Below are positions 1,302-34,917 of a stretch of DNA of 64,000 nt, one piece after another. Below the pieces are notes generated by a model. That model did no database searches. It had not been told where the DNA came from and was given only the letters and a program-made list of their open reading frames with translations. Origin of the DNA: Bryopsis sp. KO-2023 (Eukaryota; Chlorophyta; Ulvophyceae; Bryopsidales; Bryopsidaceae); contig BSYQ01000010.1 of the NCBI GenBank assembly GCA_030272585.1, forward strand, positions 1,488,001 through 1,552,000, read 5' to 3'. The translations under genes and the position numbers were made by a program. The first letter of the stretch is position 1, and every line of letters starts with the position of its first letter.

Positions 1302-1344
1302 GAGGCTAGCTCAGACTCGAACTGAGCTTGTTCCAATTAGCCTC
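1302..1344 (-). ncRNA. tRNA-minihelix-like hairpin (copy 1)
   Basis: On the minus strand a 7-nt strand GAGGCTA is followed by a 10-nt spacer, a 6-bp stem GCTCAG/CTGAGC closed by the loop TTCGAGT, and then TAGCCTC, which pairs perfectly with the first strand. This is the acceptor stem plus T-arm of a tRNA without D- and anticodon arms. Three other loci in the window have the same layout with different stem bases. It lies just inside the left subterminal array of element 1. Expression and function are unknown; it is a structural prediction. Confidence 0.55.
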
Positions 1345-2209
1345 AATTCCTTAGTATGCATCAGCTTGACGGTGTCCAGCTCTAATATCAGGGTCGAAAC
1401 CATTTCGATCAGTTTCTTGTACAGGTGGTCTGGCTTCTCGCGCTTCCGCAAACCTCAGCCAGCAAATGCTCTTGGATTTAAACCTTTCCTCACCATCCTC
1501 TTTTCCAACAGCCTTCATGACTGCTTTCCCAACATCTGATTTTCCAGACACCCCAATTGAGGGGCATTTCATTGCAAGGCGAGATAGACAATACCATTAT
1601 TTGGAGATCTTGTTCTGTGTCGAAAGAACGACGCTTGTGCTGAGCCTCAAGGCACACTGTGGATCCAGTCTGTGCAGTGTCTCCAGCAAGACCTCTGCCA
1701 ACAAGAATTGGACTCGTGATGGCGCTATCTGGAGCAATGCACTTCATCTCTCCTGGCTGAACGATATACACATATACTGCTCTGGTCTGAAGAGCAACCA
1801 TATCAATTCAACGAATGCAGAATCATTGGGTCCAGGCAGCTCTCAACCGAACAAAAACATCAATTCTGGATGGACAGATGACAGCCTGGATGAATATAAC
1901 ATCTAATGACAATGTATTTGCTTGTCCCAAAATCAGGACTCATGGAGTTCACTCATTGGAACTCTGCGCTTCAATTTGGACACCGTTATCAACGCTTCTG
2001 ATAACAAGAAAGCCGGAAAGGCTGCCAAGCAGGGATTTTCCGCAAAGGTAAAACTGAAAGTTAATACAAGTATGCATTCGAAGATACTCCTATATATTGA
2101 GGGGAAAAATAGCAGAGGTGAAATAACCAACACCCCGACTTTCACTGACCTTCATGCTCTTCGCAACGAGCCCAGTTTCCAATTCCTCTCCGCAGCCAGC
2201 AGGGCTCAC

Positions 2210-3232
2210 CCCCCCATGTCAATGTCAATCCTCAAATCATCATTCAGGGTCAAATCAATCGCCATATCATCTTTGCCCATTTCCATGTTCTCTTCCGACG
2301 TGTCTGGTTTGGGACCGCTGCTATCATTTTTTCCATGTGCTTCTTCAGGCACTTCAGTTGAGGGTTGTTCACTACAGTTTTTCTCATCGAAGCCTTCGGT
2401 TGACCGGAGCCTCGTTGCATGTTTTCGATGAATTTAGCCTTCGAAGCAGTTTCGTTGACGAGGTTCCGGAAATGCTTGAGGATTGAGGCTTCTTTTTTTT
2501 CCACATCGTCTCCGTTCACACCCACTGTCGGAATAATCTGACCACCCAGATCACAGCTTCAAAATTAGCAATCCATATATCTAGCACACACACAGAGAAT
2601 GTTGATACTGCCAGAAAGTGTACTTTCTAATTTCCATCCTTCGATTTCAAAATAAATAGCATACAACACACCAAATGTAGAGGCGTCACCTTCTCAGGCT
2701 TCATATGCTTGACGAACTCTCTGAGTTCGGTGTAAGTGGAATGCTCGCTGAGGGCACCAAATGGACCTCGCATTCTCCCTTTATACGTATAGGAAATTCA
2801 CCAGTATGTTTGGTGGTGTGAACCCACCCAGTCGGCACAAACCCAATCACCTAAAACAAGAAATTCAATTTTCAGCTCTCAATGACAACCTCTTGCAGTC
2901 TGTCAAAAAAAAAAAATCCAAAAAAATCTACCTGGCAAGTTTACAGGAGCTTAGCATTGTAGGTAACAGTATCTCCACTCGAATGGAGGGCATCCAGTTT
3001 CACTCTCTTTTCCTATTTCTCACCTTATCAACTCCGTTTTCCACTCTGGCCGATTCCATATTGACAAAGTTTGGTCTGAAGTAGGACCAGGTTTCTCCAA
3101 GGACCCCCCACTTAACAACATGAACGTTCGAAACCTTCATATCGGTAGTGAAAATGCTCTCAAGTGGTCCCAATCCAAACAGCCCATGACACCTAACTTC
3201 CTCTGTTTCTTCGATGAAGGATAAGATGAGAC
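2210..3232 (-). pseudogene. LIG6-like beta-CASP nuclease fragment, frameshifted, inside element 1
   Basis: Minus-strand exons at about 3232-3024, 2850-2690 and from 2537 downward encode the C-terminal part of the SNM1-like metallo-beta-lactamase/beta-CASP module at the N-terminus of plant DNA ligase 6. Signature pieces are HVVKWGVLGETWSYFRPNF, IGFVPTGW, SEHSTYTELREFVK and IIPTVGV. Introns keep GT-AG ends (GTGAGA donor, TTTTAG acceptor; GTGACG donor, GATTATTCCG junction) and phase 0. The middle exon is 161 nt, not a multiple of three, and the frame breaks exactly between the VP and SEHS motifs, a one-base loss. A second frame change into an acidic tail (EENMEMGKDD..) may follow near 2400. No ligase catalytic domain was seen. 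The fragment was probably captured by the transposon and is decaying. A host full-length copy would lie elsewhere. Confidence 0.75.
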
Positions 3233-3966
3233 CTGAGTAACTAGGCCTGGGGGGTGCTGAAAACACCGGGAGCGAACTATTTCTCGTGGATCATTGTTGG
3301 GATCAGTGCCTAGGCCGTGGCATCGTGGCTCTCTGGAGCAATTTAAGCGACTAATTGCAAGTCTGGATTGCTCCCTGCAATGTTCACCAAGGTTTCAAGA
3401 GCCTGATGAGGGTGCGAGTCAGACATCATACTGACGCACTGCAGTACCCTATTTAGATTTGCAGCCACTGCCCCTGAATCCGCACTGCCCACCACAATTC
3501 ATTGCAAATTTTATAGTTCGTCAAAGAACCCCTTGCACAGTACCGACACATTCATTTCCACCCTTATTTTTGTTATTTTTTCCTTTCTTTTTCCAGAATT
3601 GAAGAAAAAGAAAGGCTATGCTGCTGATTTTTCTTTGGCAGGGAACTGCACTCCCAACACCAGAAGCAAAAGAGGCGAGGAATCTCTGCAATCAGAATGC
3701 GTACCCTCGTCTATGGCGCCGCCGCTGTTCGTCGTTGGAACGCCACTACCACAGGTGGGCGTCGACACGACGCCAAAACGTCCCCCATTCAGATCCCACA
3801 ATAGTGTAAAGAGGTAGGACAGTCACGCCTCAGAATCAAGAGAAAACGAAGGCGAGTTGGCGGAAAAAAGCGAAAGAAGCTTCGTTCGTTGCGTTGTTTC
3901 ACCTCAAGGTCCTAAATATGAGCACTTGCTCCCAACTTCCCGCCAGGCCGGGAGTGATAAGGGAAC

Positions 3967-4031
3967 AAAGCATAATCATAATCATAATTACAACCCACAG
4001 CAAAAGAGAGCCATCACCCTCTATGATGCAA
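3967..4031 (+). repeat. Dispersed repeat R, copy 1
   Basis: A short ATAATC-type microsatellite is followed by a conserved core of about 40 bp containing CACAGCAAAAGAGAGCCATC and ending in ATGATGC. Three more copies are at 4498 (minus), 12186 (plus) and 27177 (minus), each next to an ATCA/TGAT microsatellite. Confidence 0.6.
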
Positions 4032-4119
4032 AGCAAACGACTGGGTTTGCGGCGAATCAGACGCAGATATTCACTCACGTTATGAATTTGTCATGGGATA
4101 CGATTTGGCTGCTGCCTGA

Positions 4120-4320
4120 AAATAGGGGAAAAATTGTAAAATAGGGGAAAAAAAAGGGAAAATAGGGGAAAAAGAGACAAAATAGGGGAAAAAGAGACAA
4201 AATAGGGGAAAATCAATGTTTTTCCCCTATTTTGAATAAAAAGGGTGAAAACGGACCAATTTTCCCGGTTTTCCCCTATTATCGCAAAAAAATAGGGGAA
4301 ACAATAGGGGAAAACGGCCG
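4120..4320. repeat. Right subterminal array of element 1
   Basis: About ten copies of the TTTTCCCCTATT module, mostly as its complement AATAGGGGAAAA, with a few in the opposite orientation near 4216-4285. This mirrors the left array and supports the element boundaries. Confidence 0.85.
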
Positions 4321-4337
4321 TTTTGAGACTAGTGTCG

Positions 4338-5715
4338 ACTTCCTCTGCAACACCGTTACACCCGTGAAGTGCGCGTGCTCGTGATTTCTTAGATTTTTTT
4401 AATTTTTTTTTCTTTGGAACAGTGGGATTTTCTTTGTCCAGGGAGCTTTCTTTTGGGTGGGTTTTGTTTTTGTTGCTCTTACCTTGTATTACTCTGGCAT
4501 TATGGGGGGTGATGGCCTCTTTTTGCTGTAATTGATTGATTGATTGCTTTCTTAGAATCTTTTTGGAATGTCTTTCGGTGTACTTCACCGGCTTGCAATT
4601 GATTCTATGGGAATAGATTGGATCCTTATATATTCGTTGTAATAGGAGAGCGGCATCTCCTACACAATGTAAATGTTGTTTGTTTGTTTGTCACCGGCTT
4701 GCAATGCTCTGACACAATGTGTTCAATCTTATTGAGCTATTTTCTCTGTGCATCGACTCGCTCCGCAAGTAAAGTGAGTCAGTGAGTGTAGAAGTGTTGA
4801 GGTGAAGGATAACTCCTTTTATTATTTTTGAGGCCCTGTAACAAGGGCATGTTGATCGTTGTCTTTTGCAAGGTCAATTTTCGACAGATAGCCATCGATC
4901 GCTGGTCGTTTGGTCGGATATATGTTTCTGTGGAAGTACATGTGGTGCTCGACTCTAAGGCGAGGATGGCGTGGGAAAACAAGCATCATATCAAAAAAAT
5001 ATATATCCGTGGGTGCGTCGAATATTACCTCGAGACAGAACGGTAGGACGGTGCATTTGTTTCTTACAATCCCACTAAAACAAAAAAAATGAGAGGTCAA
5101 CTAACATAAACAAACCTTGTTTCGAGCATAGTTTCCCCAGGCAGTTCGGAAAATGCCACCCAGTCAAAACCAAGCAGAGAAAAGTCAGATGCAACATCAA
5201 CATTCAATCTAGAAGGCAAAAGAAAAAAGAAACAGATTCATGTTCAAAAACAGCACCAACTGAAGAAAGAAAAAACTGGCAGTCCCAACCAGGCCACATG
5301 GAAATGCATGCAGCAATTGTACCCAGTTCCGGCCGGCATCCTCATCGATCTATACAACACCAGAGCGAACTGGTTGGTTTATCGTGGATCGATTTGGGTT
5401 GGCTTTGCTATGTAATGGTCCGTCATTTTCTTCCATAATGCTACATGGTTTGCCCTGACATATTATGTCAGCATTTTGTCGGTTTTGACTTGCAATATCT
5501 TTCCTGGTTTTCTTTGGTGGACTCATTTCCAACAGTCGGGCAATCCATCAGCAATTGTAGTTTGCGACAAGGTTTGGCACAGTTTCAACGAGTGCGACGG
5601 AGGGTGTCACGTGATATCTGGCGCTCTTTTTGAAGGGTGGTTGCACCCGCTTCCCATGCACACAGAAGGACAAAGCTCCCTTGTCGACTTGGTGAGGCCG
5701 TTTTGCTTGCAGAGC
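4338..5715. other. Intergenic, no supported gene
   Basis: It holds repeat R copy 2 (4498-4560, minus, with a TGAT microsatellite) and two copies of CACCGGCTTGCAAT (around 4587 and 4691). Only short reading frames are present and none has a recognisable domain. Confidence 0.5.
4498..4560 (-). repeat. Dispersed repeat R, copy 2
   Basis: Reads on the minus strand as an AATC microsatellite followed by ACAGCAAAAAGAGGCCATCA and then CCCCCCATAATGC. It lies 160 bp outside the right end of CACTA element 1. Confidence 0.6.
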
Positions 5716-5905
5716 ATACCTTTCTCGGCCTTTTGGCTAAGATCAAGTGTAGTATCTGTTCTTGTCAGTTTGATCGCTGATATGGGATTCATAGAATCCC
5801 TTCGTCGATTAACCTGAATTTTCATGGGGTGTGGGATAACGGGTGCTTGCACTCGCCCTGCGCGGCATGGTCACGGTTCTCCACTACCACTGTGATTGTG
5901 CACCC
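5716..5905 (+). ncRNA. U2 spliceosomal snRNA gene
   Basis: The first 50 nt follow the universal U2 sequence: ATACCTTTCTCGGCCTTTTG, then the branch-point pairing segment around GTGTAGTATCTG, then TTCTTGTCAGTTTGATCGC. Stem-loop IIa is closed as GGGATTC/GAATCCC. An Sm-like site AATTTTCATGG lies at about 5816-5826. Two further stem-loops follow and the RNA ends in TGCACCC, about 190 nt in all, the usual U2 length. The 5' end ATACC is typical of plants. U2 pairs with the intron branch point in the spliceosome. No plant USE or TATA element was recognised upstream, so a non-canonical promoter or a diverged gene copy cannot be excluded. A tRNA-like minihelix begins 14 nt past the end. Confidence 0.9.
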
Positions 5906-5919
5906 ATGAAATAAAAACA

Positions 5920-5960
5920 TAGTGCGCTGGCCTCGTTCAGGTTCGACTCCTGAAGCACTA
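5920..5960 (+). ncRNA. tRNA-minihelix-like hairpin (copy 2), downstream of U2
   Basis: TAGTGC (5920-5925), a 10-nt spacer, then TTCAGG, loop TTCGACT and CCTGAA (5936-5954), then GCACTA (5955-5960), which pairs with the first strand. Stem bases differ from the other copies while the pairing and the loop are kept. It lies 14 nt after the U2 end and could act as a 3' processing signal, as in tRNA-like 3' ends cut by RNase P and RNase Z. That role is inference. Confidence 0.5.
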
Positions 5961-6185
5961 CTACTCTTGACTTTTTCTATCACAGGCTGTAATCCACAGC
6001 CGTCTCAATACCACAAAAGTAGCTTTTTCCACAGCGAACCTCCACCATAATATTGATTGATTGATTGATTGATTGATTGAACCTCCACCAGACTCCTTTT
6101 ACAGAGAGGCGTGTTATTGCTCTTTGTGTTTTTTTTTTGTTTTTTTTTGCGCGTGGTGCACGAAGCAAGCAGCATGAAAAACTTT

Positions 6186-6421
6186 CGCGGGCCACTTGGC
6201 TGGCAACGTTTTAGGAAGAAGCATCTTGAAGAGCATGCTCTTTGGGTTCCGCGGGTGCCTAATAAGCACCTCGTTACGCGAGAGCCCGGGCTTGCAAAAA
6301 CCCCGACCGGTATCAACAGGTCGATGGGGTTTTGGAAGCCCGGGATAACAACGCCCGAGGTCGCCGTATGGCACCACACTGGTTTACAAGTGTGGTGTCG
6401 AAAAATACGCCGGTGGGCCAC
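6186..6421 (+). ncRNA. Candidate structured RNA of unknown class
   Basis: A run of strong hairpins: AAGAGCATGCTCTT (near 6229), GGTGC/GCACC around a TAATA loop, CTCG/CGAG, and a long interrupted stem CCCGGGCTT..CAAAAACCCC..GACC pairing with GGTC..GGGGTTTTG..GAAGCCCGGG. Last comes CACCACACT/AGTGTGGTG. The pieces GCCTAATAAG and AAGCCCGGGATAA resemble core stretches of twister ribozymes, and GGTGCC/GGCACC could form the enclosing stem, but conserved twister positions were not all matched. No ORF in it is convincing. A T-run follows at 6431. The strand is uncertain because hairpins are symmetric. Confidence 0.4.
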
Positions 6422-6693
6422 ATTCAATTCCTTTTTTCCTTAATTTCTTGTTTTTATTTTAATGTAATTTTTGGTTTTAATTACTTAATAATTTCGAATC
6501 TAAATCGAAAACTGTTATTTATTAAAATCTTGATCAAATGATCAAGTTAAATCGAAGATCTTCTTTTCTTATCGAATTTATTTGGTTATGATAGTGAAAA
6601 TGTCTTTAGATTTTTTGTGACGTTTAAGGTTTTAGCCCTTGGTTATTGGTCGCCACTGCGAACCACAGAACTCGGTTCAAACAATAAATTTAT

Positions 6694-6737
6694 CGCTTGT
6701 GCACGGTACCTGTACGTACAGGTACCGTGCACAAGCG
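6694..6737. repeat. Perfect 44-bp palindrome
   Basis: Two 22-bp arms with no spacer (left arm starts CGCTTGTGCACGGTACC, centre between 6715 and 6716) form a perfect inverted repeat that could extrude as a cruciform. No gene overlaps it. Nearby sequence is AT-rich spacer upstream of the secreted-protein gene. Confidence 0.9.
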
Positions 6738-7066
6738 TTTATACACGCCATCGAGAAACAGAATCGATCGACTCAATCGCGATTGGCGAATATTGGATCT
6801 GAGTGTCAGCTTCTCTCTGGGCCACGTCTTTTAGTGCCGTGTCGACCAAAAGCACCGAGCTCTCTCCTAACTTTTGGTTTCCTTGTTGGGGAATGTCTCA
6901 CCCCCGCCGGCGGTTTCTGTTACTTTTGAACCGGTGGTCCGTAGAATTCTTAAAATTTTAGTAAAACCCTGCGGGCCATCAATACTGAGTGAAAGTTTCT
7001 GCAACCAGATAATTTCCAGAGTTGCGACTGCAGGGGTGTCCATTTTTCATCTACTGGAGCTCCAAG

Positions 7067-8435
7067 ATGCGTTTCTTTAAAGGGAAATTTCCCTTCCTGG
7101 CTTTGTTCCTCGCATTTTCGGCGGCTCAAGACACGACGCGAGCCCCGTGCGAGAGGAGCACGTGTCTCACGGGCACCAGCGCAGGGTGCGGAGGAACCTG
7201 CTTTATCGATATCGATGTGGCGAAAAAAAAAAAAAAAACAAAAAAAAACCAAAAAAAAACAAAAAAACCAACGACTCCGACAGAGAAACAGAGAGTTTGG
7301 GGCTCCTATGCAGCGAGGAGTGCGTCGCCGGCTGGTCGTCCGACGCTACTTTAGACTGTCTCAGGAATGAGCAAACCGAGTTTTCGCTGGGAGTTCTAGA
7401 GGTACTCATATGTCGCGAAACGGCACACCCCAAGAAGCTCGAAAGGCAGCCCAGGAACGCCGTTTCGCCTCTTTTCGTCGCGGTTGAGTCATATAAGACG
7501 TTTCACGAGCAGTTTTGCTCAAGACACGCGCGCGCGTGCATTCTCAGAAACCATTCCTTGTGCTAAAAACGTATACCTGACGTGCTCTCTATTTTAACGC
7601 ACTTCAGACAAGACACGAAAAAATGAGCGCGAAACTTCGAAATGCTAAAAACGTTGTCGACCACTTGGTGGAGTTCAAATTTTTGGAGTTTGGTGGAACC
7701 CGGCACTTATCTTGTTTTCGTGCGCTCCTGCGTTGAGAAAAGTTGCGTTCCTAAAGTCAAAACTTTGCGTGTTGCAGACAGGGGCGGGTGGGGGCTGGGG
7801 GCGTAACCGGTAACGAGTAATACTCGGTTTTAGTAGTCACACGCATCAATTTTCCAGCGAAAGAGCAGCATGCATCCGCGCGTTTCCGCTTGCTTGATTT
7901 GCCGTCGTGGAACAGCAAAACTGCGAAACTGACAGATTGGCTGGTTGACTTGTAGCTCGTCGAACGACTTACGAAAGAAGTTTGCCCCCTCGTTTGTTCG
8001 GTTGGTGTCGTGCCCCCCGAGATAGAGGAGGATTGCCTCGCCAACGAAACTTGTTCCGAGAGGTGCAAAGCCGCGTTGTTGAACTTGAGTCGAGCCTGTC
8101 GAAACGTGCTGGTTCGCTCCACGAACCCAGATTTTAAAGAGGCTGCTTTGAGAATCTTTACTGGATGCGGCGTGGAGTTTGATCCGGTGAGACTGTGACT
8201 TGTTCGCAGCTGAATGCATCCCATCGCAGGGGGGGGGGGTTCACTTTGTTTTTGTTTCTTTTTGCTAAATCGCCAGAAAAAGTCAAGATTTTCCTCACAC
8301 GAGCTGAAACGGAAGCAGTCTTGATTCCATGGTTTTCTTTGTCGACGGGAATTTTTGTACCCTTTTTGTTTGCAGGAAGTGGAGGCGCTTGAACCAACGG
8401 AAAGTCCATCCAAAGAAGGTGGCATCGATGAGTGA
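7067..8435 (+). CDS. Small secreted cysteine-rich protein, function unknown
   Basis: Four exons, all phase 0: 7067-7216, 7294-7401, 8022-8186 and 8376-8435, giving 160 aa. The start MRFFKGKFPFLALFLAFSAA is a clear signal peptide, probably cleaved near AQD. The mature part has 12 cysteines in pairs such as CSEEC (exon 2) and CSERC (exon 3). Each of these two is followed by a Cys 11-12 residues later (CVAGWSSDATLDC; CKAALLNLSRAC), so two related Cys-helix modules are likely. It ends in an acidic tail EALEPTESPSKEGGIDE. Donors GTGAGA (exon 3) and acceptor TTTGCAG (exon 4) are strong. The first donor (GTGGCG), first acceptor (CAGAG) and second donor (GTACTC) are weak, so those boundaries are less certain. 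No known family recognised; probably extracellular or lumenal. Confidence 0.65.
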
Positions 8436-9543
8436 GCCACTCGCTCATTTAATTCAACGTTGGTAGAATTGGTAGAATTGGTAGAATTTTATCAACTGTT
8501 TTGGTTCCAGTGTTCGGTTGTTTGCGGTTCATGTCTTGAAAAGAAAAATCGAAAAAAGCAAGCTTTAAGCTACAAGTTGTCCAGTCTCTCTCTCCCTGAT
8601 ATTAGTCCCCAGCAGAAAAACCGCCAGGAAAACCGAAGCGGCGGCCAGGGAATTTTTAATCATGGGCACCTGATTTATCGCAGGGGGGACCTGTTTTTCG
8701 ACTGCTGGGGCCTTTTTTTTTTTCTTGGTGCTGGGGGTGTTGTTTTTGTTTTTGTTTTTTTTTTGGATGTGACATTATAATGACAAATGGTCCAATGTCG
8801 GTCTTCGATATGACCTTAGGGTTAAAAAAGACCTGTAATAAACAACCATTAACACACACACCTGATTTATCGCAGGCCCGTTTGACGGCCTGATCATTCA
8901 ATCACCTTTTAATCACTGAGGCTCTTGGTGTTAACACCTGGCGAACTCTACTTTGAGGGCTGGGAATCATCAGTCCGCAACTCTAACATTCTCTAGCGCC
9001 GCCATTCATCGCACAGAACCCAAAACAATAAATGCTCTGAAGCCACCTCTCGTATGTCCTCTATGCAGTGCTGTAGGGGCACAAGGCAGCCCTGTTGCTT
9101 GAATCTGAGAATTTGTCCGAATTCGCACTATTCCCCTCGAGGGGAACGACGAGCTCGTCGTTCTGCGGACACGTTATCCGAACGAGGTTCTGTGGTGGTG
9201 CGATTTCCTGGCCGTGGCGTTCACGACTATGGCAGAAAGTGGTCTTTGAACACAAAAAAAAACTTGAGTCAGGTTCGAACACCAAAGGTTGGCTCTTTGC
9301 ATTGAAAGCCAAGAATTCCAGCCGACGACTCATCGAAGGGGCGTGTGGGAAGGACAGTGGCTTCTTTTATGCTCGGTTGGGAGCGAAACTCAAACATCTT
9401 TTCAAAGAGGTCTCCCACCTTCCCATTATGACAACGCACGACAACGCTCACCGTGAGCGACTGACTCCAGTGACTGGAGTCATTTGCCTGCTCCATGGAT
9501 TGGAGAAAATTCATATGGAGGGACCGATTTTTTTGAGGTTAAA
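8436..9543. other. Intergenic with direct repeats and palindromes
   Basis: CACCTGATTTATCGCAGG occurs twice (about 8666 and 8859). Two overlapping palindromes are at 9131-9163 and two adjacent ones at 9445-9482. Reading frames on both strands are open for up to about 200 codons but show no recognised domain or splice logic. Confidence 0.4.
9131..9163. repeat. Overlapping double palindrome
   Basis: TTCCCCTCGAGGGGAA (9131-9146) and GAACGACGAGCTCGTCGTTC (9144-9163) are both perfect and spacerless, and share the three bases GAA. Pairs of palindromes at unrelated sequences occur at five other loci in the window. Confidence 0.85.
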
Positions 9544-9904: not shown

Positions 9905-9928
9905 CAAACAACGTCGACGTTGTTTGCA
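9905..9928. repeat. Perfect 24-bp palindrome
   Basis: GCAAACAACGTCGACGTTGT plus its last four bases (to GTTTGC) form a spacerless perfect palindrome inside element 3, built on the same AACGACG-type module as its subterminal repeats. Confidence 0.75.
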
Positions 9929-12113: not shown

Positions 12114-12173
12114 CAGGGCTGCTGGTCGCCAGTGGCGACTCGCCACAGCCTGGTTCGAGTCCAGGCAGCCCTG
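12114..12173 (+). ncRNA. tRNA-minihelix-like hairpin (copy 3, long spacer)
   Basis: CAGGGCT (12114-12120) pairs with AGCCCTG (12167-12173). The T-arm-like hairpin GCCTGG, loop TTCGAGT, CCAGGC lies at 12148-12166. The spacer is 27 nt and itself contains a perfect hairpin GTGGCG-ACT-CGCCAC. At 60 nt with three stems it resembles in size and shape the tRNA-like mascRNA cut from vertebrate MALAT1. It lies just internal to the right subterminal array of element 3. Confidence 0.55.
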
Positions 12174-12185
12174 ACAAAAAGGGAA

Positions 12186-12245
12186 TCAATCAATTATATT
12201 GTGGCAAAAAGAGGCCATCACCCCCAATCAATCAATCAATCATCA
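12186..12245 (+). repeat. Dispersed repeat R, copy 3
   Basis: GGCAAAAAGAGGCCATCACC followed by an AATC microsatellite; the core resembles the copies at 4498 and 27177. It is placed between the minihelix and the subterminal array of element 3. Confidence 0.5.
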
Positions 12246-16913: not shown

Positions 16914-19383
16914 TCACCTTTTCCCTTTTTCTGCCTCCCTCTCCAGAACCACCTTGACGTTTTCGAACGCCACGTACGAAATGCTGATGGCCGGCAGAGC
17001 TTTGAAGAAGTTTGGACCCAGCCCTTTGTACAGGCCAGTCAGACCGTCCTGTCTGACCACCTTTCTGAAGCAATCCAAAATTCCGGAATACAGTACGGGC
17101 CTTCCTTTCGTCCCCTGGGTTTGCAAGCGAGTTCTCACCAATTGGAGAGGGTAGGACACCAGCTGGCCGGCGGTTGAAGAGGCCGCCCCGCAAGCTAGCA
17201 AAGTCAAAGTCCCTGGATTTCTGTCTGGGAATGCATTTGTGTAGGTCTCCTTCAGACCGGAGTAGAGGGCCAGGTCGACACCTGATTTAAAAGAAATTAA
17301 TCAAAATAAATCAAAATAAAATAAATAAACAAAATAATAAGGAATCAGGAAGGAATCCTTCAGCTGAAGATTTGGCATCGAATGTACGAAATTGTTTCCT
17401 TATTCATGGAAGAAATAAGATATCAACTCGGAATTGAAAAACAAAAAGTCCAGTTACAAAAAGCACACGGAATTTGATATCTTCTGGATTTACCACTTTT
17501 TTTCTTCTGAGCAAATGAAATGTATTCCAGCTTTGACGAAATTCGTTTGTGAGAATCTCCACTTCTACTTTCTAAAAAACAGTACGGGCAAGCAAACAAG
17601 GAGGAAAAACCTCAGCTTTTCCCTGACCCTCCTTTCATTTTTTTTTTAATTATATAAAAATATATATATATATATAATCACTTACCAGCATAGGGAATGA
17701 TCCCTGCCAGTGAAGCCCCCAACCCCTTGTACAAAGCTCTGAATCCTTCCCTGGAAACCGTTTCTCTCAAGCAGCCAGTAATTCCAGAGTATTCGCCCAG
17801 CCGGCTGGCAGCGAGTCGAGTTTTGGCAATTTCCAAAGGGTAGATCGCAGTCTTGACACAAAGAGGCAAAAACATCAAAAAATTGAAAAACTCCACCATC
17901 CTTAGAAAATAAAATAGAAAATAAAAACTAAGAATAAATCAAGGAACACATGTAATTTCTATTTTTTGAATTATTATTTTTTAAATAGGTGATAAGGGTA
18001 AAAAAAGAAACAGCAAAGATTTAAAGGTTTATATATACCTGAGAAACGACTCCTGCCGATGAACCAGCGGCGAGCCGCTCGATCGCTGTCGGGGCATCCT
18101 TGTCTTTAGCAATCAGGTTTCTAAAAGTGTCGAATGCCCAGAATTTTATAGCTGTTTCTGGAGCTATTTTTAGGACATTTGCTCCGTTTCCACGGAAAAA
18201 ACTCTTCCAGCCGCCATCGCTGTAAATGGAACGCAGCCCCCCAGCCAGCCCTGGATGATAACCACCATTATTACAACGAGCATAAAAAAGCAAATCCCCG
18301 AATGTAATGGAACGTCCGGAAAATAAAACCCAGTGGCCTCTTGTCAAAGATTTTTTGTTTACAGTATGGTGCTGGTGGGCATTTTCAGATTAAAAAAATC
18401 ATAAGAAAAAAAAAAATCAGGCAATACTCGAGGTTCGAAAAAATGACCCTGATGGACTTTTCAGCAGAAACAGAAACCCTTGTCTGTTCAGAATCAGATA
18501 TTCTGAAATTGCATGTGGGGCTGAGGGCTCTCATGTCAGTCTCACCTGGATATTTCGAACTCTCGGTCGAAGCCTGCAGAATCGTCTTCAACCGATCCAG
18601 AGGGGCCGTCGAGCTTCTGGACACCGCCCCCGCAACCGCCCCGGAGCACAACGTAATCCATGGAGCCTTCATTCCCTGAGTATCGTCCGGAATCAGCATG
18701 CTTTCCCCGATATCAATGGCCGCCGCTTTCGTCCACACTTCGAAAATCGCTCGGATGTTGTGGGAGGGCAGCAGCACCAGGAAATCCCTGAACTCCGCAA
18801 AAGAGATCGTTCCATTCCCGTCTTTGTCCATTTGTTTCACCAAAGTGGAGCATTCTGCTGCTGTGGCTTTGACCCCTAGGAGCTCCAGGGACCTCCGGAC
18901 TTCGCCCACCGAAAGGGTGCCGTCGCCATCCTGGTCGATGTCCGAAAAGACTTTTTGGAGCTCTGCTTCTCGTTGAGAAACGAAGCTGCAGAATTCGTTG
19001 AAATCGATCGTGCCGTCTCCATCCTTATCTCCGGCAGCTATTATCGATTCAACCTGAAAACATCAGACAGTGAGTGTTGCTCATGAGAATATTTCTTTGG
19101 ATTTTTTCTTTTAAAAAAATTGAAAATTTGATTTTGATTTTGGCAAGATTTTGATGTCCCGTTTCCCCCCACACCCGCAGAGAAAAAAAACGGCGAGGAG
19201 CTGAATGTATGTAGAAAATACAGCCAGAGTTCGGAGGTGAAAACGTACGATATTCTTGCTGACGGGCAGCTTGAGCATTCGCAGTCCTTGCTCCAGCTCT
19301 TTCGCGTCAATCACGCCATTCTTGTCCGTGTCGAGTTGGTCGAAAACTCGCTTTGCCACACGGACCTCCACCCGTTCTGTCAT
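16914..19383 (-). CDS. APC: Calcium-dependent mitochondrial ATP-Mg/Pi carrier (SCaMC/APC)
   Basis: Five exons, phases all consistent: 19383-19249, 19053-18546, 18250-18039, 17851-17686 and 17281-16914, giving 462 aa, the usual size. The N-terminal half has four EF-hands with intact 12-residue loops at about 18-29 (DTDKNGVIDAKE), 54-65, 85-96 and 121-132. Three mitochondrial-carrier repeats follow with signatures APLDRLK, YPLEIAKTRL and YPLQLVRTRL, each with a G-x-x-x-L/F-Y/F-K/R-G-L/N-G element (FFRGNGANVLK, LYKGLGASL, LYKGLGPNF). The family exchanges ATP-Mg for phosphate across the inner mitochondrial membrane, gated by cytosolic-side Ca2+ through the EF-hand domain. It is divergent from the BUD31-like gene, with 459 bp between start codons. 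No defect was seen. Confidence 0.95.
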
Positions 19384-27176: not shown

Positions 27177-27238
27177 CATCATGGAGGGTGATGGCTCTCT
27201 TTTGCTGTGGGTTATATTTAGCGATTGATTGAATGTCG
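27177..27238 (-). repeat. Dispersed repeat R, copy 4
   Basis: On the minus strand: an AATC-type microsatellite remnant, then CCCACAGCAAAAGAGAGCCA and CACCCTCCATGATGC, almost identical to copy 1. Lies about 260 bp outside the left end of CACTA element 2. Confidence 0.6.
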
Positions 27239-27540
27239 AGTAAAAGAAACAATGTCATTTTCGCCGCTTGTTCAGGCCGGGCATCTGAAAGAGAAAGGTT
27301 GGAGCATGTGATAAGTGTTCATTTTTGGACAAACGCGAATGGGGGATAAGAAGTCCTCAGGAATTTCCGGCTTGTCGATGTTGGAGACCTCTTCGAACGG
27401 ATGTCATACGGAGGTCAACTTGAGGAAAAGAGAAGCGAGAATGGAGATGTCTTTATACAATATGCATTTCTTCTCTTACCCTCGATAGGGTTGCACTATG
27501 GGAAATCGCGCTCTGTGCGGGGTGTTTTGGCAACCCCGCA

Positions 27541-27904
27541 CAGAACCCTGAACAGTCACGCACAGAGTTAAAAACACCCCGCACGGCTCTGTTCCCCGGT
27601 TTGGCCCCGTATTGTGCGGGGTCCCGATTTAACCCCGCACAGACTGGAACCCCGCACACAGAACCTGACGTCTTTCCCGTTGTGGGACCCCGCACAGATG
27701 AAACATAGCCCCGTACAGTGTGCGGGGTATCCTATTCTCTGTACGGGGGTGCCGTGCGGGGTGGATATGAAAGACGTCGGGTTCTGTGTGCGGGGTTCCA
27801 GTCTGTGCGGGGTTAAATCGGGACCCCGCACAATACGGGGCCAAACCGGGGAACAGAGCCGTGCGGGGTGTTTTTAACTCTGTGCGTGACTGTTCAGGGT
27901 TCTG
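27541..27904. repeat. Long inverted repeat in the left array of element 2
   Basis: Arms of about 135 bp (27541-27675 and 27770-27904) are nearly perfect reverse complements around a 94-bp centre. They are built from CCCCGCACAG modules, giving the same peptide on both strands (SSLCGVKSGPRTIRGQTGEQ). Confidence 0.85.
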
Positions 27905-27919
27905 TGCCATTAATGAAAC

Positions 27920-28154
27920 TGTAACGGGACGCACACAGCCTCTAGCTGAGAGGACCTGCGTCTTGGGTTACTCCTTGTTCTTAGGCTCTTTTCAGTGGTG
28001 GTCACGTTCGTTCGGTCAAGTTCGGTCGAGAATCAGTCAAAATGTTACAAGTCGAATCTAACAAGTCTCTCTCTACCCCCCAGAGGATCGCCTAAATACT
28101 TGGGATAGTCGGACCTACAACCCTCACTACATCCACCTCATCAGTCCTATTACA
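27920..28154 (-). repeat. LTR (3' copy in element sense)
   Basis: 235 bp, begins TGTAACGGG and ends CCTATTACA on the plus strand. It appears identical to the copy at 31708-31942, which implies that insertion is recent relative to the substitution rate. Confidence 0.92.
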
Positions 28155-31100
28155 ATCCCCTCCACATCACCGCCTAAACTCCTGTCCGGCGGATGATGTC
28201 ACAAGAAAGAAAAAAACAAAAAACGTGATCCTGAAGGGTGTAGAGTTACTGTCAAATTGAACAAGTCCCATTGTCCGTCAATCAGCTGAACTAATATAAT
28301 CCGTCAGCCAATCCAAATCAACCCAATAAATGTTGTCAATAACCCATGGATAATATTGTCGGAATAAGATCCAATAGCAACTCACTCTGGTGATCCAATC
28401 CAACCAATCGGTAAAATATTCAGCTCACCTCTAAGAGTAGTGCTAATCCCAAATAAGTAAAATCAACTCAATCGAAATAAACTCAATCAAAGAAAAGAAA
28501 TACGTACTGAATTCTCAGCCCCTTAGCCCATCCAACCTCAAACCAAAAGGGCTGGCTGTGATTTCAAAGCAATATAAAATTTTTGTCGAATGAAAATCAG
28601 TCCAAGTCAAAAAGTAAAGTCTATCAATAACTGACTGCCGCTCCCCTCCTGATCTAAAGAAAATCAGTGAAATCGGCATCCCATACTACCCATCTCTGAG
28701 ACAAGAGCCAATCAAACTATTGATGTCATGAAAGTCAATTTCTTGCCTACTTCAATAAGCAATGTCCAAAAGAAAAGAAAGAGAAGAAAAGAAAATGTCT
28801 ACTCAGTTCCACTACTCAGTTACTCACTCCCTCCGATCTCACCATCAGTGGAGCTAATCGGAATAAAGAAAATCAGTGAACCAGAACTAGAAAATATCCA
28901 CCTCTGATCCCCTCATAATCAATCATATTATTCTCCCCTCCAGTTTGGAGATCCAGGGACTGAGGCTGAAAACAATGTCCCAAATACTAGTCAAAAGAAA
29001 TCCTATCAAATCAGAAATCCAGGGCTGGCCATAATCGAAAAACTAGACTTTCAATCAAGCTACCAAATGCCTAATGGTTTTGCTTCTTAACATCTTAAGT
29101 TGATTGTAAGTTGTGCAAGCACACAAGCAAAACTAGACTGACCTATCCATCCACAAGGAATCGTTCAGAATACTCACAAAAACGATCGCATAATGACCAC
29201 TGGCTAATCCTACTTGCTCATGTCAGGTCCAACCCGGACTACCAAATCAGTCAAGAAAACAGAATCAAAGAAAATCAGACCCTAGCTCCCCTCCAGTCAC
29301 AACATCTTTGGGGCTGGCTGGAGATCCAAGAATAAATATCAAGTAATGCAATGTCAGAAATTCCAATCTGACCTACAATCCATCCAATCCATTACCCCCC
29401 TCCCAACTGAAAACTGAAAACTGGGGGTTTAGGGCTGAAAATTCCATGTCAAAATAAAAATAAAAAGTTAACCACTCTTGAGCCAATAATATAGTCATTT
29501 TTTTCACCTCCAGCAACCCAAACAGATTTTTCTGGGACCAACAAAACCAAATTTCAATTCAAAATCAAAAATCAGATTCTAAATTAAGAACATCCATTCA
29601 CCTCAGACCGAGCTCTATCGCCTGTCCCAAAGCGTTAAGTGGCAGCTTGGCGACATTTTCTCGACACTCACTCCAGTTGCCGCCCCCTCACTTGCCAACA
29701 AATCGTGGGCCTTGTGTGGCATCAATCCCTTCGGTCGTCAACTGAATCTTCACCCCGCAAAAGCTTCGCCTTGGAAGGTGACGCCCCCTCCGTCGGCTAA
29801 TCCCTCACGTGATGGCATGCCTCCACCTTAGTGCTTCGCCAGAACTCATTGGTGGCCTTCGGGCGTCTGTCTAGACATCTGCCCATCATGCAGTCACACT
29901 TTCTTCGATATTCCGTTTACCGAGCGTCTCCTGCCCACCGACCGTGCAACTCAAGCTACTGTCATCGATGTGTTCGGCATTCGCTCCTCGTTGGATCTGT
30001 AGCATTTCGCCTCTCGAATAGCTTTTCTTCGCCCGCAAATGGTTACTGACATCTCTGACGTCCAAGTCGTGAGACGCCTTAGCTTCACCACTGGGTTACT
30101 GCCTATTCTGTTTAGGCTGCATATCCAGTCATCGGCTGCAAAAGACCATTTTTGCAGCGAATCGTGACACTTTCCAAGTGCCCTTGACGCAACTGCATGC
30201 TCTCCCGACTCCAGTCGATTTTCGGAATTATATTTTGATCATTAATTGCACGTTTGGTCACAAGCTCCTTTCGCCAAGCAGATGGGGCTCCTCCTTTTAT
30301 TTCTGTCTCATTCCCGAATGCAACCGACGCGGAATTACCAGTTGCGTTGCTCGCTCGACAGATTCGCATCACTCTGGGGTCCCTTCGGTTTCCCCACGAA
30401 TCACATTTCCAATATCCTTTGGATCGACCCTTAATTTCGAGCAAAATCTATTCAATTCAAGAGTTCCACTTCACCCATTGTCGAGATTTCGGTGTCTACA
30501 TCCACAGTGTGACTCCCTCTCAACGTGAAAATTATTACTGGAAACTCTGTTGGGATTTCTGTCAGTTCGAGCCACTTGGCCTCAAAACCAACCAACAGCA
30601 ATTTTACTTGAGTCTCTCATCAGTCAAAATCAAAATGTGGTTTCATTCATCACCCTCATATGGTTCCGAATTTCGATTATATCCGTCTCTTCGCCACTGC
30701 GTCGCTCCTCCGACTTCGTTCGGCAATCCTTGCGCCCAGTTTTGTTTGACATCGCTAATCAACATCTTTTCCTCGGACCCCAATCCACGGTTCAAATGTG
30801 CTTCAGCTTCCACACCATCAACTTCGATTGACCTGTCCATGGTCGCAGCCCAGCCGACGACCAGACCTGTAGCTGTTGTGAGACAGCGAGTCGCAAAATC
30901 GATTTTCGATTCGCCCCCCCCCATGGAGGCCAGGGTTTACACCCCGCGATCGACTCCTTTACCACTATCGACTTCGATACGCCAATTTCGATTCACCTTT
31001 CGAATCCATTCGTGAAATCCCCCAGGATTTCTCCAGAACTCAATCCCCAAATTCTGGCGACAACCCCCAGCCTACCACGCATTGGCTGGGTCCGAAGGCC

Positions 31101-31707
31101 TCGTGACAAATGGCTACGCCTACGTCCACCTCTTCCCCTTCGGTCGATTGTCAGCGCATCTTGACGACAGTACCTTTCGCCGCATCACCCACGCGACGTC
31201 CGAATCCCAAAATCTGTATCTCGGTCCTCAGACCGGCGCAAAATCCTGCTTTTACTCAAGCAAAGTGTATTTTGGCTCACCAACTGCGAGACAAACTCGC
31301 CACACCTTCTCCAACGTTTTCGCACCTCCCTGCGCTATTTCCCCACCGATCTTCGATGGTCGCACATTGGAGTCGTCACTCACTTTGAACAAAACCTCGT
31401 CAAGCTTTCGATCTACTTTCTTTTTCAACACTTTGGGCTACAACAACCCTCAAGACGTCGTTTATAACCGTTCTTCGTTTGTCTTTCGAATTCTGTGGAA
31501 TTCTGTCCGCGACGTCCAAGTTTCGCGCCCAGTTGATCGTCTCACAAGTCCACACGAGTCAGCTCACCCAGACTACTCCTCAAGTTCGTGGTACTTCGTT
31601 TTCCTGGTTGTGTCGTTACTACGTTGGTGGCCTTTTCATTGTCCTTTCGCGTCCCTGCCCCACTTTGGATCATCCTCGTATTAGAGGTCCCTTCGCTCCG
31701 AAACCAT

Positions 31708-31942
31708 TGTAACGGGACGCACACAGCCTCTAGCTGAGAGGACCTGCGTCTTGGGTTACTCCTTGTTCTTAGGCTCTTTTCAGTGGTGGTCACGTTCGTT
31801 CGGTCAAGTTCGGTCGAGAATCAGTCAAAATGTTACAAGTCGAATCTAACAAGTCTCTCTCTACCCCCCAGAGGATCGCCTAAATACTTGGGATAGTCGG
31901 ACCTACAACCCTCACTACATCCACCTCATCAGTCCTATTACA
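31708..31942 (-). repeat. LTR (5' copy in element sense)
   Basis: 235 bp identical partner of 27920-28154. The primer-binding site lies directly inside its left edge, fixing the element on the minus strand. Confidence 0.92.
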
Positions 31943-32160
31943 GAAACACCCCGCACAGGAGGGCCAGACCCCCGCACAACTGTGCGGGGTCTCTGTGCGG
32001 GGTGACTGTGCGGGCTCCTTTTGTGTGTGTACGGGGTGATTGTGAAAGGCGTGTGCCGGCGTATTTCGTTCCTGTGCAGGGTGATCATGACAATCGTGTG
32101 CGGGGTTCTAGTCTGTGCGGGATCGCTGTGCGGGGTTCTACTGTGTGTATGCTGGGTGAT

Positions 32161-33290
32161 TGTAGAAACACATCTGTGCAGCTTCATGATGACAATATGG
32201 TTGTTACAATAAAACAACAATGACAAAACCCCTTTTTAAATGTACACCCCATTTTATGATCGAAGACTTGCCCATTCCCACTTATTCCAAAATAGAAATA
32301 GAAACTAAAAAAATAGCCCAAAACCATGAACTCTGATCCTGCCATTCCGACCCTGCGCTTGTCTTTCAATAATACAGAGCTCGTTGAACATATAAATACC
32401 CATCTGACCCACTTCTAACCATTTTTTAATTGTTTTATCAGCAAAGCAGAATAAGGCACATGAGGTGCAATTGTTCAAATGTTCATAATAACTGCAACAT
32501 ATGTTGTCATATGCATATGAATCCAGGTTCACTGAGGTTGGAAAAGTCTTGATAAAGTCCGTCTCCTGAATCAAAACCAAATACTAAAAACGTTTTTTAA
32601 GAAAACAATGCGCACGTATGATACCAGAAACAAAACAAGCATGTTGCACCTTGATCGAAAAAAGGGGGGGCGGAAATCACCCTATCCAGCTTCCCTTTGC
32701 AATTGTTGTTACCTTTTTTTCATGGGGTGGGCAGGCTGCCCATTCTAACACACCTCCATCTTCCTTTTTCTGCTGGGATTGGTCTTTTTGATCCTTCGAC
32801 CGAGCGGGCTGGCATTCTCGAATGATCTTCACTGTACCTCATCTTTACGGACAAAAGAATACATCCCCCCTCCCATAGACCCATGAGCTGATTAGCCCGG
32901 CCATCGAATCCCTCACTGCCTGGCAGACAAAACCAGGTGTCAACCCCCCCCCCCAACCCAATGGAATGGCCTGCCCAATCAACAAGAACTAGGATCTGGT
33001 GTGTGCCGTATCATGCGAATTTTGTACATTTCCTGCGTCCAAGGGTTGGAATAAATCAGTTGTTTCAAGAAAAGTAAAAGCCACCTCAACATGTTTTATT
33101 TTCTGCCTATTTCCCTTACTGCAAAAGAAGGTTCCTGCTACATGAAATGCATCTTGCTGACGCACCCACAGCATAATTCCCTGTAACACACCAGGGCATT
33201 TTTTTATGTTTTATAACACACTGTCCATGTTTTTTAACACACTGGGGACTGTCCATGTCGACCCCATGCAAGACCAAGAGCCTCCCCTGG
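32161..33290. other. Body of element 2 without identified coding sequence
   Basis: Short frames only. It must contain the 5' part of the SWIM gene if that gene is more than a fragment, but no upstream exon could be fixed. Contains a run of C at 32946-32955. Confidence 0.4.
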
Positions 33291-33294
33291 GTGT

Positions 33295-34265
33295 GTGGAT
33301 GAAAGCAACTACGAGGTCACATTACAAGACATCAAAGGAATCGAAAAAAGAGTTCGATCAAAAGCTCAGTTGAAGTACACAGTTCTGGGGGGAAAGTTCA
33401 ACAAACGACTTGATATTCTTATATCCAAACTGTTGACAAATGTGAAAGACTTATACCTCAGCAAATCAGGGAACAACGATCAGGAGAACAACCCACGACT
33501 GAAGAATCAAATATTTGAGAGAGAAACGAAGGTGATAATGATGATTTTCTGCTTGTACATACTGAAATCAGACTATGTTCAGAGATCCGTTATATTTTTT
33601 TGTGTTCTTTGACGCAGGCCAAGGCAATATGGGAAAACCAAGACAAAATGATTGATATTATTTCACCTGATGAAGGGCTTGCAACAGTTCTATCCAGCGA
33701 TGGGATTGAGACATATCAAGTCGATATGGGGCATTCCACGTGCACATGTAAGGACTCCGCGGGCATTCTCTGCAAACACCTACGTGCTGTTGCACGTTCT
33801 TTGGGAGGGTTGGAGGGGTGGGGACTGAACATTGATTCAATGAGGCCGGGAACCATCACCATCGAAGACGCTTCAGCGGGAGACTCACAGGGAGAACTTC
33901 GTGTTGAGGATCGTGAACGGGTCGCCCTGGGGGTTCCTACAAATCCACCAAATCCTCAAATTTTGGGAATGATGCACAGTGCACTTGACAGATTAGATGA
34001 TCTTCCAGCATCAGAAAGAGATGAAACCCTTAGCCAAATGAGAATAGCTTTGATACACAAGACCCAAGAGTTCCAGAAAAAACTCAGACCGAAGGAGGGG
34101 ACTAGACCGAAGGAGGGGAGTAAACCTGCGACAATAGATGGGAAGAAATGGCCAGGAAACCAAAAAAAAAGAAAACAGGGAAAAGAGGACTACCCTAGAC
34201 CTCTAGAAGACAAGGAAAATGTCAGAAAAATAAGAACAGTGGCCACATATTATCAAGCCCTGTAA
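33295..34265 (+). CDS. SWIM zinc-finger protein carried in element 2
   Basis: Two exons with a phase-0 junction: about 33295-33531 and 33618-34265; the 5' end is unresolved because no upstream ATG or acceptor is clear. The second exon has a SWIM motif C-x-C-x7-C-x-H (CTCKDSAGILCKH), followed by RAVARSLGGL, an acidic/Pro linker, the duplicated RPKEGTRPKEGSK and a Lys-rich tail (KKRKQGK). SWIM domains bind DNA or protein and are frequent in MULE transposases and in host genes derived from them. No DDE catalytic core is visible, so this is either a captured host gene or the tail of a former transposase. The second intron end GACGCAG is good. Confidence 0.65.
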
Positions 34266-34433
34266 ATTGTAAACCTGGACTCTTTGGGACAAGTACAGCA
34301 CTAGTCTTTTTGCTCCTGCATATCACGAAACTCAAGCGTAAAACTCACCATCCGCCAAAATTGTCCCGAAAGATCCTTCCGCCTCTGATAACCCTGCTCG
34401 AGAAATCGAACAGTGCAGAATCGTTCCAGGCAG

Positions 34434-34452
34434 GAGGAGGAATTGAACCTCC
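34434..34452 (-). other. Isolated T-arm-like hairpin
   Basis: On the minus strand AGGAGG, loop TTCAATT, CCTCCT. It has the geometry of the T-arm part of the minihelices and a tRNA-like loop, but no acceptor-like strands pair around it. It lies within element 2, 423 bp from copy 4. Confidence 0.35.
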
Positions 34453-34724
34453 TTTTTTCCACCAGACCTAGCGTTGTTGCGACGACCACGAAAAGGTTGC
34501 GGCCGTTGAATGTCCTCATTTGCGGTATCTCAGGTACGCCAGGTGCAAGGCCGTCCACGCAACACGCCCACGCGCGTCGCTTCCACTTGAGTCAGGGAAG
34601 GGCACTTGGTGATTTCTGTGCGTGCATGCAAGGGAATGGTGACTTGGATGCTGACGTCGGCCAGTCTGACTTTTTTGCACGCGTTTGGGTGGATTTGGTA
34701 CCAGACCCTTCGCGATTCGGTGAC

Positions 34725-34794
34725 GTCAACCCCGCACAGGATAGTAACCCCGCACAGAGTCCTGTACGGGGTTACTGTCCTATGCGGGGTTGAC
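34725..34794. repeat. 70-bp near-perfect hairpin of CCCCGCACAG modules
   Basis: GTCAACCCCGCACAGGATAG plus TAACCCCG pairs with its complement ending at GCGGGGTTGAC, with a 14-bp centre and few mismatches. Part of the right subterminal region of element 2. Confidence 0.85.
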
Positions 34795-34874
34795 TGTGCG
34801 GGGTTGATTTCCGCGGTTTCATCCGTCGCTGACGACTTCGCCAGCGACTACGTTTTTCCGCCCCAGATCGTGAC

Positions 34875-34917
34875 GGGAATGCCTGGGAGTCGAACCCAGG
34901 TGTTTCCTACCATTCCC
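34875..34917 (-). ncRNA. tRNA-minihelix-like hairpin (copy 4)
   Basis: On the minus strand GGGAATG (34917-34911), a 10-nt spacer, CCTGGG, loop TTCGACT, CCCAGG (34900-34882), then CATTCCC (34881-34875). Both stems are perfect (7 and 6 bp). It is located between two parts of the right subterminal region of element 2. Confidence 0.55.

Follow-up and report, generated by a model that had tools for sequence, protein, structure and literature searches.

Every U2 spliceosomal snRNA locus in the genome of the coenocytic green alga Bryopsis sp. KO-2023 (n = 29, all above the Rfam cut-off) has a hairpin at its 3′ end, on the same strand as the gene. Judging from its sequence, this hairpin is most likely a tRNA mimic without D arm or anticodon arm, and we think it fairly probable that RNase P and/or tRNase Z act on it and thereby form the 3′ end of U2. 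The window, a stretch of 64,000 nucleotides of contig BSYQ01000010.1 that was analyzed as a whole, contains one of these genes and four hairpins, from which we built a model (R1):

1302..1344, minus strand: hairpin A, minihelix (53.2 bits; one of the model's four sources)
5662..5673, plus strand: PSE-like upstream element of the window's U2 gene, at −54 (assigned from where it lies and from its resemblance to the L024 row)
5716..5908, plus strand: U2 spliceosomal snRNA gene (Rfam RF00004, 144.7 bits, model positions 1-192 of 192)
5920..5960, plus strand: hairpin B, minihelix (45.8 bits; one of the model's four sources)
12114..12173, plus strand: hairpin C, minihelix (44.3 bits; one of the model's four sources)
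34875..34917, minus strand: hairpin D, minihelix (54.0 bits; one of the model's four sources)

The preliminary description of this DNA had reported these hairpins, and its coordinates, strands, stems, bulges and loop all agree with ours: an outer stem of 6-7 bp, an inner stem of 6 bp, the loop TTCGA[C/G]T, and a 5′-side bulge of 10, 10, 27 and 10 nt in A, B, C and D, respectively. Hairpin B, which starts 11 nt past the end of the U2 gene, consists of 6 bp, a 10-nt bulge with GG at 5929-5930, 6 bp and the loop TTCGACT; in hairpin C, GG stands at position 4 of the 27-nt bulge. Neither the U2 gene before hairpin B nor the bulge GG had been noticed previously. The z-scores of folding alone were −2.9 (A), −0.7 (B), −3.5 (C) and −1.9 (D), and the predicted best fold of hairpin B differs from the minihelix. 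No Rfam family matched the hairpin in the window at E up to 5, nor did any at gathering score in 18 loci chosen by the B box, GGTTCGANTCC. Full tRNA genes were considered and rejected, because ARAGORN reported none, either in the window or at 30 B-box loci.

R1 was run on the window, 59 U2 and B-box loci, and 29 U1 and U4 loci, which include 13 of 16 U5 places. It reported the hairpin at 28 of the 29 U2 loci, 27 of them at 23.8-45.8 bits and L025 at 16.9; hairpin B and five identical U2 copies match by construction because the model was made from the window hairpins. The 29th locus, L013, gave no report and was recognized by eye, with a 1-nt insertion in the loop and intact stems. At L036 the match extends into the final bases of the U2 match, and at L037, where an insertion splits U2, the hairpin (34.8 bits) lies 4 nt past the displaced U2 end. 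The linker between U2 and hairpin is about 4-12 nt and varies in length and sequence. Acceptor stems are imperfect in L025, L026, L028 and L037, and the U2 hairpins stand in several diverged flank families.

A strict descriptor (perfect stems, at most 3 G-U pairs, bulge 5-30 nt) was applied to 272,537 bases, made up of the window and those loci that had not been picked via GGTTCGANTCC. Eight of these loci, L001-L008, had been picked via their TTCGAST loop, and the U2 loci are similar to one another. It returned 30 matches: 21 behind U2 genes and 5 in the window (the window's own U2 hairpin being counted twice), and one each in L001, L037, L078 and L079, the last of them weak. Ten Markov shuffles gave 0-2 matches each, and four altered loops gave none on 285-461 sites, versus 1061 sites for the real loop. 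One perfect hairpin in the window (19325-19364, minus strand) was discarded as a chance match, as it lies inside an EF-hand exon and has no GG at bulge position 3-5. Separately, one exon was compared with known proteins, and no close named match emerged. A model-free descriptor that requires GG was satisfied at 22 of 29 U2 loci, 1 of 21 U1 loci, 0 of 8 U4 loci and 2 of 4292 background windows. A loose minihelix rule passed 18 of the first 30 B-box sites on contig C1; this count alone is weak proof because with shuffled upstream sequence an average of 9.94 of 30 pass (maximum 13). By eye, some of these sites (L045-L048, L051, L052, L060 and L061) look like SINEs derived from tRNA.

Pairing was tested on the full set of 19 distinct U2 hairpins; the remaining 10 loci carry identical copies. 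Paired cells made up 95.6% (89.1 in shuffles), 8 pairs had changed on both sides (3.2), 21 cells showed a change on both sides (5.5), and covariation was 0.392 (0.249); none of these four values was reached in any of 500 shuffles, which do not model the kinship of the related U2 copies. Structures slid along the same hairpins pair in only 37-53%. In a smaller set of 15 (omitting L013, L025, L028 and L037), 97.2% of cells were paired and covariation was 0.337 versus 0.224 (0 of 500 shuffles). This set had 3 pairs with a change on either side, a number that 24 of 500 shuffles attained, and 12 further pair types, which 182 of 500 attained. In several U2 copies a rival hairpin is the predicted best fold, with similar or better energy: the minihelix has −5.8 kcal/mol versus −9.8 for the best fold in L020, and −5.9 versus −11.6 in L036. 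The covariation among U2 copies strengthens the earlier argument for selection on RNA pairing.

Every one of the 19 distinct U2 hairpins has the bulge GG. In a wider set of 22 families, 19 have GG at bulge position 3-5, whereas shuffles average 5.6 and reach 14 at most. The 22 rows and the bulge limits were set by hand, and a choice of 7+5 instead of 6+6 pairs shifts the position by one. In this test L038-L040, L043/L044, L053/L055, L056/L057 and L062/L063 were each counted once; left out were the SINE-like L045 and L046 (both satisfy the loose rule, with GG in position 4), as well as the relatives of C and a copy of D at L065. Among the families from the strict finder, GG is present in 8 of 10, and genome-wide TGG stands at the canonical distance before GGTTCGACTCC 62 times, compared with 7 at a control distance.

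The hairpin thus combines an acceptor-like stem stacked on a T-arm with a T-loop, conserved pairing, and residues of the tRNA elbow, GG from the D-loop and TTC from the T-loop. The bulge GG sits where G18-G19 of tRNA would meet the T-loop and could rebuild the elbow. According to a review (PMC10941002), PRORP makes contact with the G18-Psi55 and G19-C56 pairs through its PPR domain, and G19-C56 is also read by RNP RNase P. A single PRORP match (135.9 bits) is present in the genome; it may serve organelles only. Together with the U2 covariation, the conserved GG and this match lend weight to the suggestion of the preliminary description that the hairpin resembles a tRNA minihelix and may engage tRNA-processing enzymes.

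Based on these observations, we propose the following mechanism. RNA polymerase II would transcribe U2 and the hairpin in one pass. The mimic would comprise an acceptor-like stem of 6-7 bp, a 5′ linker, usually 9-15 nt long, that has its GG around position 4, and a T-arm of 5-6 bp with the loop TTCRANY, giving a stacked helix of about 12-13 bp with a rebuilt D-loop/T-loop elbow. RNase P, probably the genome's PRORP, would cut at the acceptor-like stem, on its 5′ side, leaving a pre-U2 with a 3′ tail of about 4-12 nt for trimming, while tRNase Z may cut the other side of the hairpin. DNA transposons and subtelomeric repeats would have picked up this cassette as well, and it may serve them to cut transcripts, either their own or those that read through.

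The hairpin is not the general 3′ signal of snRNA genes, because it occurs at 1 of 21 U1 loci (L078) and 0 of 8 U4 loci (11 and 6 of which, respectively, are above the Rfam cut-off), and none was seen in the 3′ flanks read by eye at U5 (7 of 16) and U6 (5 of 5). By eye, a different hairpin or a T run occupies the corresponding place in several U1 and U5 genes. This would suit a structural terminator or exonuclease barrier for snRNA made by Pol II, in the manner of the Integrator 3′ box, which would need no tRNA enzymes and make the T-loop likeness incidental. We regard such a barrier as unlikely, as TTCRANY and the GG near bulge position 4 are kept across unrelated stems, which is unexpected for a generic barrier.

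The T-loop sequence also raises the possibility that the hairpin acts as DNA. A downstream B box, bound by TFIIIC, serves Pol III transcription of yeast SNR6. The hairpin could likewise be a B box (GGTTCGANTCC) that binds TFIIIC and directs Pol III to U2 from downstream, or could work like the upstream boxes of Leishmania, where U2 transcription is described as directed by a tRNA-like stretch that contains an A box and a B box (PMC4950102). In hairpins B, C and D the T-arm contains the B box, and among the 19 distinct U2 hairpins it does so in 12. Genome-wide the B box has 3677 sites, compared with 187 for the reversed pattern; its exact form is missing from hairpin A and the other 7 U2 hairpins. 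A B box also requires no acceptor stem, yet the stem is paired and has compensatory changes. A motif at a mean position of −54 (sd 1.1) is common to 30 upstream regions of U1, U2, U4 and U5 genes, a hand-picked and partly related sample (10 U2, 10 U1, 4 U4 and 6 U5, excluding the window's own U2) whose four shuffled controls ran fewer restarts, and nearly all of the U1, U4 and U5 genes have no hairpin. TATATAA or TATAAA was found within 50 nt upstream of none of the 29 U2 genes; TATATAA lies near −30 in all four U6 upstream regions read. All five U6 genes end in TTTTTT, and the one SRP RNA seen ends in a T-run. Near U2 hairpins, T5 within 50 nt is at background (5 of 28; background 0.176), the window's own U2 having TTTTT 10 nt past the hairpin. 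Because U2 shares the −54 element of U1, U4 and U5 and shows no excess of T-runs, a role as Pol III promoter is unlikely, and we assign the B-box explanation as a whole a low probability.

If the hairpin is transcribed, it could instead be retained as a tRNA-like domain at the 3′ terminus of U2, perhaps with CCA added, and protect or localize the RNA. The short distance of about 4-12 nt would permit this, and CCA addition is described as possible on the t-elements of plant mitochondria (PMC11658184). We consider retention decidedly improbable, given that the linker varies in length and sequence and that the hairpin also occurs in transposons and in a subtelomere.

The transposons of the window that bear on the hairpin are as follows:

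891..4334, no strand assigned: CACTA-type element A (terminal repeat 13/13; 3-bp target duplication TCG)
27494..35009, no strand assigned: CACTA-type element D (terminal repeat 12/13; 3-bp target duplication TTG)
33519-34265, plus strand: ORF with SWIM zinc finger in element D (26.2 bits, cut-off 19.6)
34431..34470, minus strand: weak minihelix, the second in element D (18.2 bits, three non-pairing positions), possibly a decayed copy

Three of the four hairpins had been placed beside the subterminal repeats of different CACTA-type elements. This is borne out for A and D only, whose elements have CACTA ends and 3-bp target duplications; hairpin C adjoins repeats, and no CACTA ends were found for it. 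Element A has tandem repeats at 963-1278 and 4119-4212. The end of element D with its hairpin is present in 40 scored copies at 91-100% identity (from 106 candidates, window included); in the L065 copy, the hairpin is identical in 43 of 43 positions and the end is 93% identical. For hairpin C, 7 matches (window included) span 185-222 bases at 90-100%; a further 5 are diverged, with 73-78% over the hairpin, and 20 short ones match the downstream repeat. The five diverged relatives have bulges of 13 nt (three) or 11 nt (two), each with one mismatch in 13 pairs by eye, so the 27-nt bulge of C is a local expansion. A sequence with inverted repeats of no assigned class and a subtelomere also carry the minihelix. 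The transposon link is therefore real, since two CACTA elements and a subtelomere carry the hairpin, but secondary to its most regular home, the 3′ flank of U2, and it no longer stands as the main story. That the hairpin is a conserved CACTA part, as first supposed, and was brought to U2 by insertions is very improbable: two elements with CACTA ends have one, and D exists in at least 40 copies, but several diverged flank families of U2 have the hairpin a few nt past the gene and in its orientation, one U1 gene is followed by it too, and its place and direction differ between elements (411 nt from the left end of A, reading outwards; 92 nt inside the right end of D, reading inwards).

The proposed tRNA mimic has partial parallels in known systems. 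The t-elements of plant mitochondria are homologous to tRNA genes, fold into a typical tRNA-like secondary structure and lie on mRNAs and rRNAs, whereas the Bryopsis hairpin is nuclear, lies on a spliceosomal snRNA, and shows neither such homology nor such a fold, having no D or anticodon arm and, in the window and 30 B-box loci, no ARAGORN tRNA. In plant tRNA-snoRNA precursors, which are nuclear and join a tRNA unit to a small RNA, a true tRNA lies upstream of the snoRNA; in Bryopsis the mimic lies downstream of U2. Plant PRORPs are reported to process this precursor and to mature mitochondrial mRNA ends at tRNA-like structures (PMC10941002). MALAT1 and NEAT1 likewise pair a Pol II non-coding RNA with a downstream tRNA-like structure (mascRNA, menRNA) matured by tRNA processing, and are described as the sole lncRNAs so matured (PMC12941219); Bryopsis differs in its many loci, smaller structure and snRNA context. 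In Giardia, a 12-nt motif near many ncRNA 3′ ends, including those of snRNAs, mediates 3′-end formation (PMC3510501); it is a linear sequence, and "tRNA-like" and "RNase P" are absent from the text of that source. The Leishmania unit also stands beside U2, as an upstream Pol III promoter part (PMC4950102). In the literature covered, which included few subscription papers and preprints, no title or start of an abstract concerned a minihelix behind U2 or in CACTA elements.

More tentatively, and with less than an even chance in our estimate, the hairpin represents a nuclear form of tRNA punctuation: a portable elbow cassette of about 40-45 nt, seen by PRORP via GG and T-loop, that would form the 3′ end of U2 and of one U1. 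Several DNA transposon families and telomere-facing subtelomeric repeats would have acquired it, probably giving hundreds of copies in this one genome, and would cut or release non-polyadenylated RNAs with it.

The known routes to the 3′ ends of spliceosomal snRNAs are Integrator-type cleavage and Pol III termination. If U2 is handed to tRNA maturation in Bryopsis, this would be another route of snRNA 3′-end formation, linking tRNA processing to splicing capacity, and nuclear RNase P would gain a new client. The minihelix would be a naturally evolved small tRNA mimic whose GG directly tests what PRORP must see, and its presence in transposons would show how an RNA-processing signal can turn mobile.

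All four minihelices claimed in the preliminary description are present in the window, each with a 6–7-bp outer (acceptor-like) stem, a 5' bulge, a 6-bp inner stem (T-arm) and the tRNA T-loop. They and the features discussed with them are as follows:

891–4334: element A, with CACTA ends and a 3-bp duplication
1302–1344, minus strand: hairpin A
5662–5673: promoter-like element at about −54, also found in the upstream regions of loci L009–L093
5716–5908: full-length U2 snRNA
5920–5960, plus strand: hairpin B
12114–12173, plus strand: hairpin C
27494–35009: element D, with CACTA ends and a 3-bp duplication
34875–34917, minus strand: hairpin D

The covariance model R1 was built on these four hairpins, so their own scores of 44–54 bits hold by construction; the rest of the window contained only one extra match (18.2 bits). 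Using a descriptor independent of R1, we found 30 perfect minihelices in the 272,537 bases of the window and extracted loci; U2 genes precede 21 of these. The same search of ten Markov-shuffled sets gave 0–2 minihelices each, and four altered loops gave none, though with fewer sites than the real loop. The design is not a product of chance, though one isolated perfect hairpin can be. One of the 30 matches, in the window, was dismissed because it sits in an exon. A protein assembled by splicing exons of the window aligns over its whole length, at 96% identity, with BSKO_11015 of Bryopsis sp. KO-2023 (Ulvophyceae, Bryopsidales).

The preliminary description overlooked the U2 gene beside hairpin B, whose snRNA (Rfam, 144.7 bits) ends 11 nt before the hairpin. 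The genome has 29 U2 loci, and at 26 of these R1 matched at the U2 3' end on the U2 strand (23.8–45.8 bits). At L036, one of the 26, the match overlaps the final bases of the U2 match. L025 also matched, at 16.9 bits, and at L037, where an insertion splits U2, the hairpin (34.8 bits) lies 4 nt past the displaced U2 end. L013 had no R1 match and by eye shows a 1-nt loop insertion with intact stems. The L037 insertion is in the 3' half of U2, with the downstream minihelix kept, and a second, unrelated minihelix (1938–1982, minus) lies near the inserted sequence. A separate descriptor requiring GG matched 22 of 29 U2, 1 of 21 U1 and 0 of 8 U4 loci, vs 2 of 4292 background windows. The lone U1 case (L078; R1, 22.1 bits) has the same design with unrelated stems, and no minihelix was seen by eye in the 3' flanks read for U5 (seven) and U6 (five). 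Several snRNA genes form same-strand linked pairs, U1 then U5 or U5 then U4, about 85–132 nt apart by coordinates (L069–L075, L079, L089, L091–L094); perhaps they are co-transcribed, or merely duplicated together.

Nineteen distinct sequences occur among the 29 U2 hairpins, and their pairing strengthens the case for selection on RNA structure. With 6+6 pairing, 95.6% of cells were paired (89.1 in shuffles), both sides were altered in 8 pairs (3.2) and in 21 cells (5.5), and covariation scored 0.392 (0.249); none of 500 shuffles, which ignore the kinship of U2 copies, attained any of these four values. Slid structures paired in 37–53% of cells. The commonest U2 hairpin family is also compatible with 7+5 bp, the tRNA geometry. 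Thermodynamic folding was less clear, with several copies having a rival hairpin of similar or better energy.

Among 22 families whose stems are unrelated, 19 have a GG that starts at position 3–5 of the 5' bulge, vs an average of 5.6 and a maximum of 14 families in 10000 bulge shuffles; the exon match, a weak match and L053 lack it. Every one of the 19 distinct U2 hairpins has this GG without variation. Genome-wide, TGG stands at the canonical distance before GGTTCGACTCC in 62 places, a total inflated by repeats and including 10 U2 flanks by coordinates, vs 7 at a control distance. D-loop G18 and G19 of tRNA contact T-loop Psi55 and C56, forming an elbow that RNase P and RNase Z recognise (PMC4810234); we infer that the bulge GG rebuilds it.

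A B box lies inside 12 of the 19 distinct U2 hairpins and might be taken for the U2 promoter. Across 30 chosen upstream regions, U1, U2, U4 and U5 share a degenerate 12-nt element at −54 (sd 1.1), scoring 217 vs 138–143 in four shuffles, whose position sd was 18–23. TATATAA or TATAAA is absent from the last 50 nt upstream of all 29 U2 loci, and T5 occurs within 50 nt of 5 of 28 U2 hairpins, the window's own included, which equals the background of 0.176. U6 has TATATAA near −30 in all four upstream regions read and TTTTTT at its end in five of five. By the shared element, the lack of TATA and the background level of T5, U2 resembles snRNA genes transcribed by Pol II, which makes the B box an unlikely promoter for it.

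The hairpin had been read as a part of CACTA-type transposons; elements A and D each carry one, and hairpin B follows a U2 gene. The hairpin-bearing end of element D has 40 scored copies (106 candidates) at 91–100% identity; in L065, the hairpin is identical and the end 93% identical. Hairpin C has seven long matches, the window included, and five diverged relatives, each with a single mismatch; their bulges measure 13, 13, 13, 11 and 11 nt. The search with hairpin C also returned 20 short matches to a repeat of GAGGCCATCACCCCC beside TGAT runs, seen at window 12185–12240 and about 4498–4545. Five plus/minus pairs 3.8–3.9 kb apart occur among the 62 TGG-GGTTCGACTCC places, including L056 and L057 (C1:826658–833478), whose hairpins face each other in a common 693-nt inverted repeat (99.6% identical); such pairs, grouped by spacing and not by sequence, also occur on contigs C2, C4, C10 and C11. 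Several subtelomeric minihelices at one end of contig C1 (C1:3142–7833, L038–L044), three of them in tandem, face the TTTAGGG repeats and read towards them, the sense of telomere-repeat RNA. GGTTCGAATCC sites on C1 are often minus/plus pairs about 207 nt apart (e.g. 964743 minus, 964950 plus), with flanks that look tRNA-derived (SINE-like) by eye.

Our literature search found no snRNA client of such tRNA-like 3' signals and no reduced minihelix retaining elbow residues. According to a review (PMC10941002), PRORPs in plants act at tRNA-like structures to mature the ends of mitochondrial mRNAs and also process a nuclear tRNA–snoRNA precursor, and the PRORP PPR domain contacts the G18–Psi55 and G19–C56 pairs. 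Given these elbow contacts and substrates and the one PRORP match in the genome (135.9 bits), PRORP would be the leading candidate enzyme for a putative processing step at the U2 hairpin. Rather than a transposon part, the hairpin appears to be a tag at the 3' end of U2 snRNA genes; it mimics a tRNA elbow, is found in transposons as well, and is similar in kind to t-elements of plants and to the 3' end of MALAT1.
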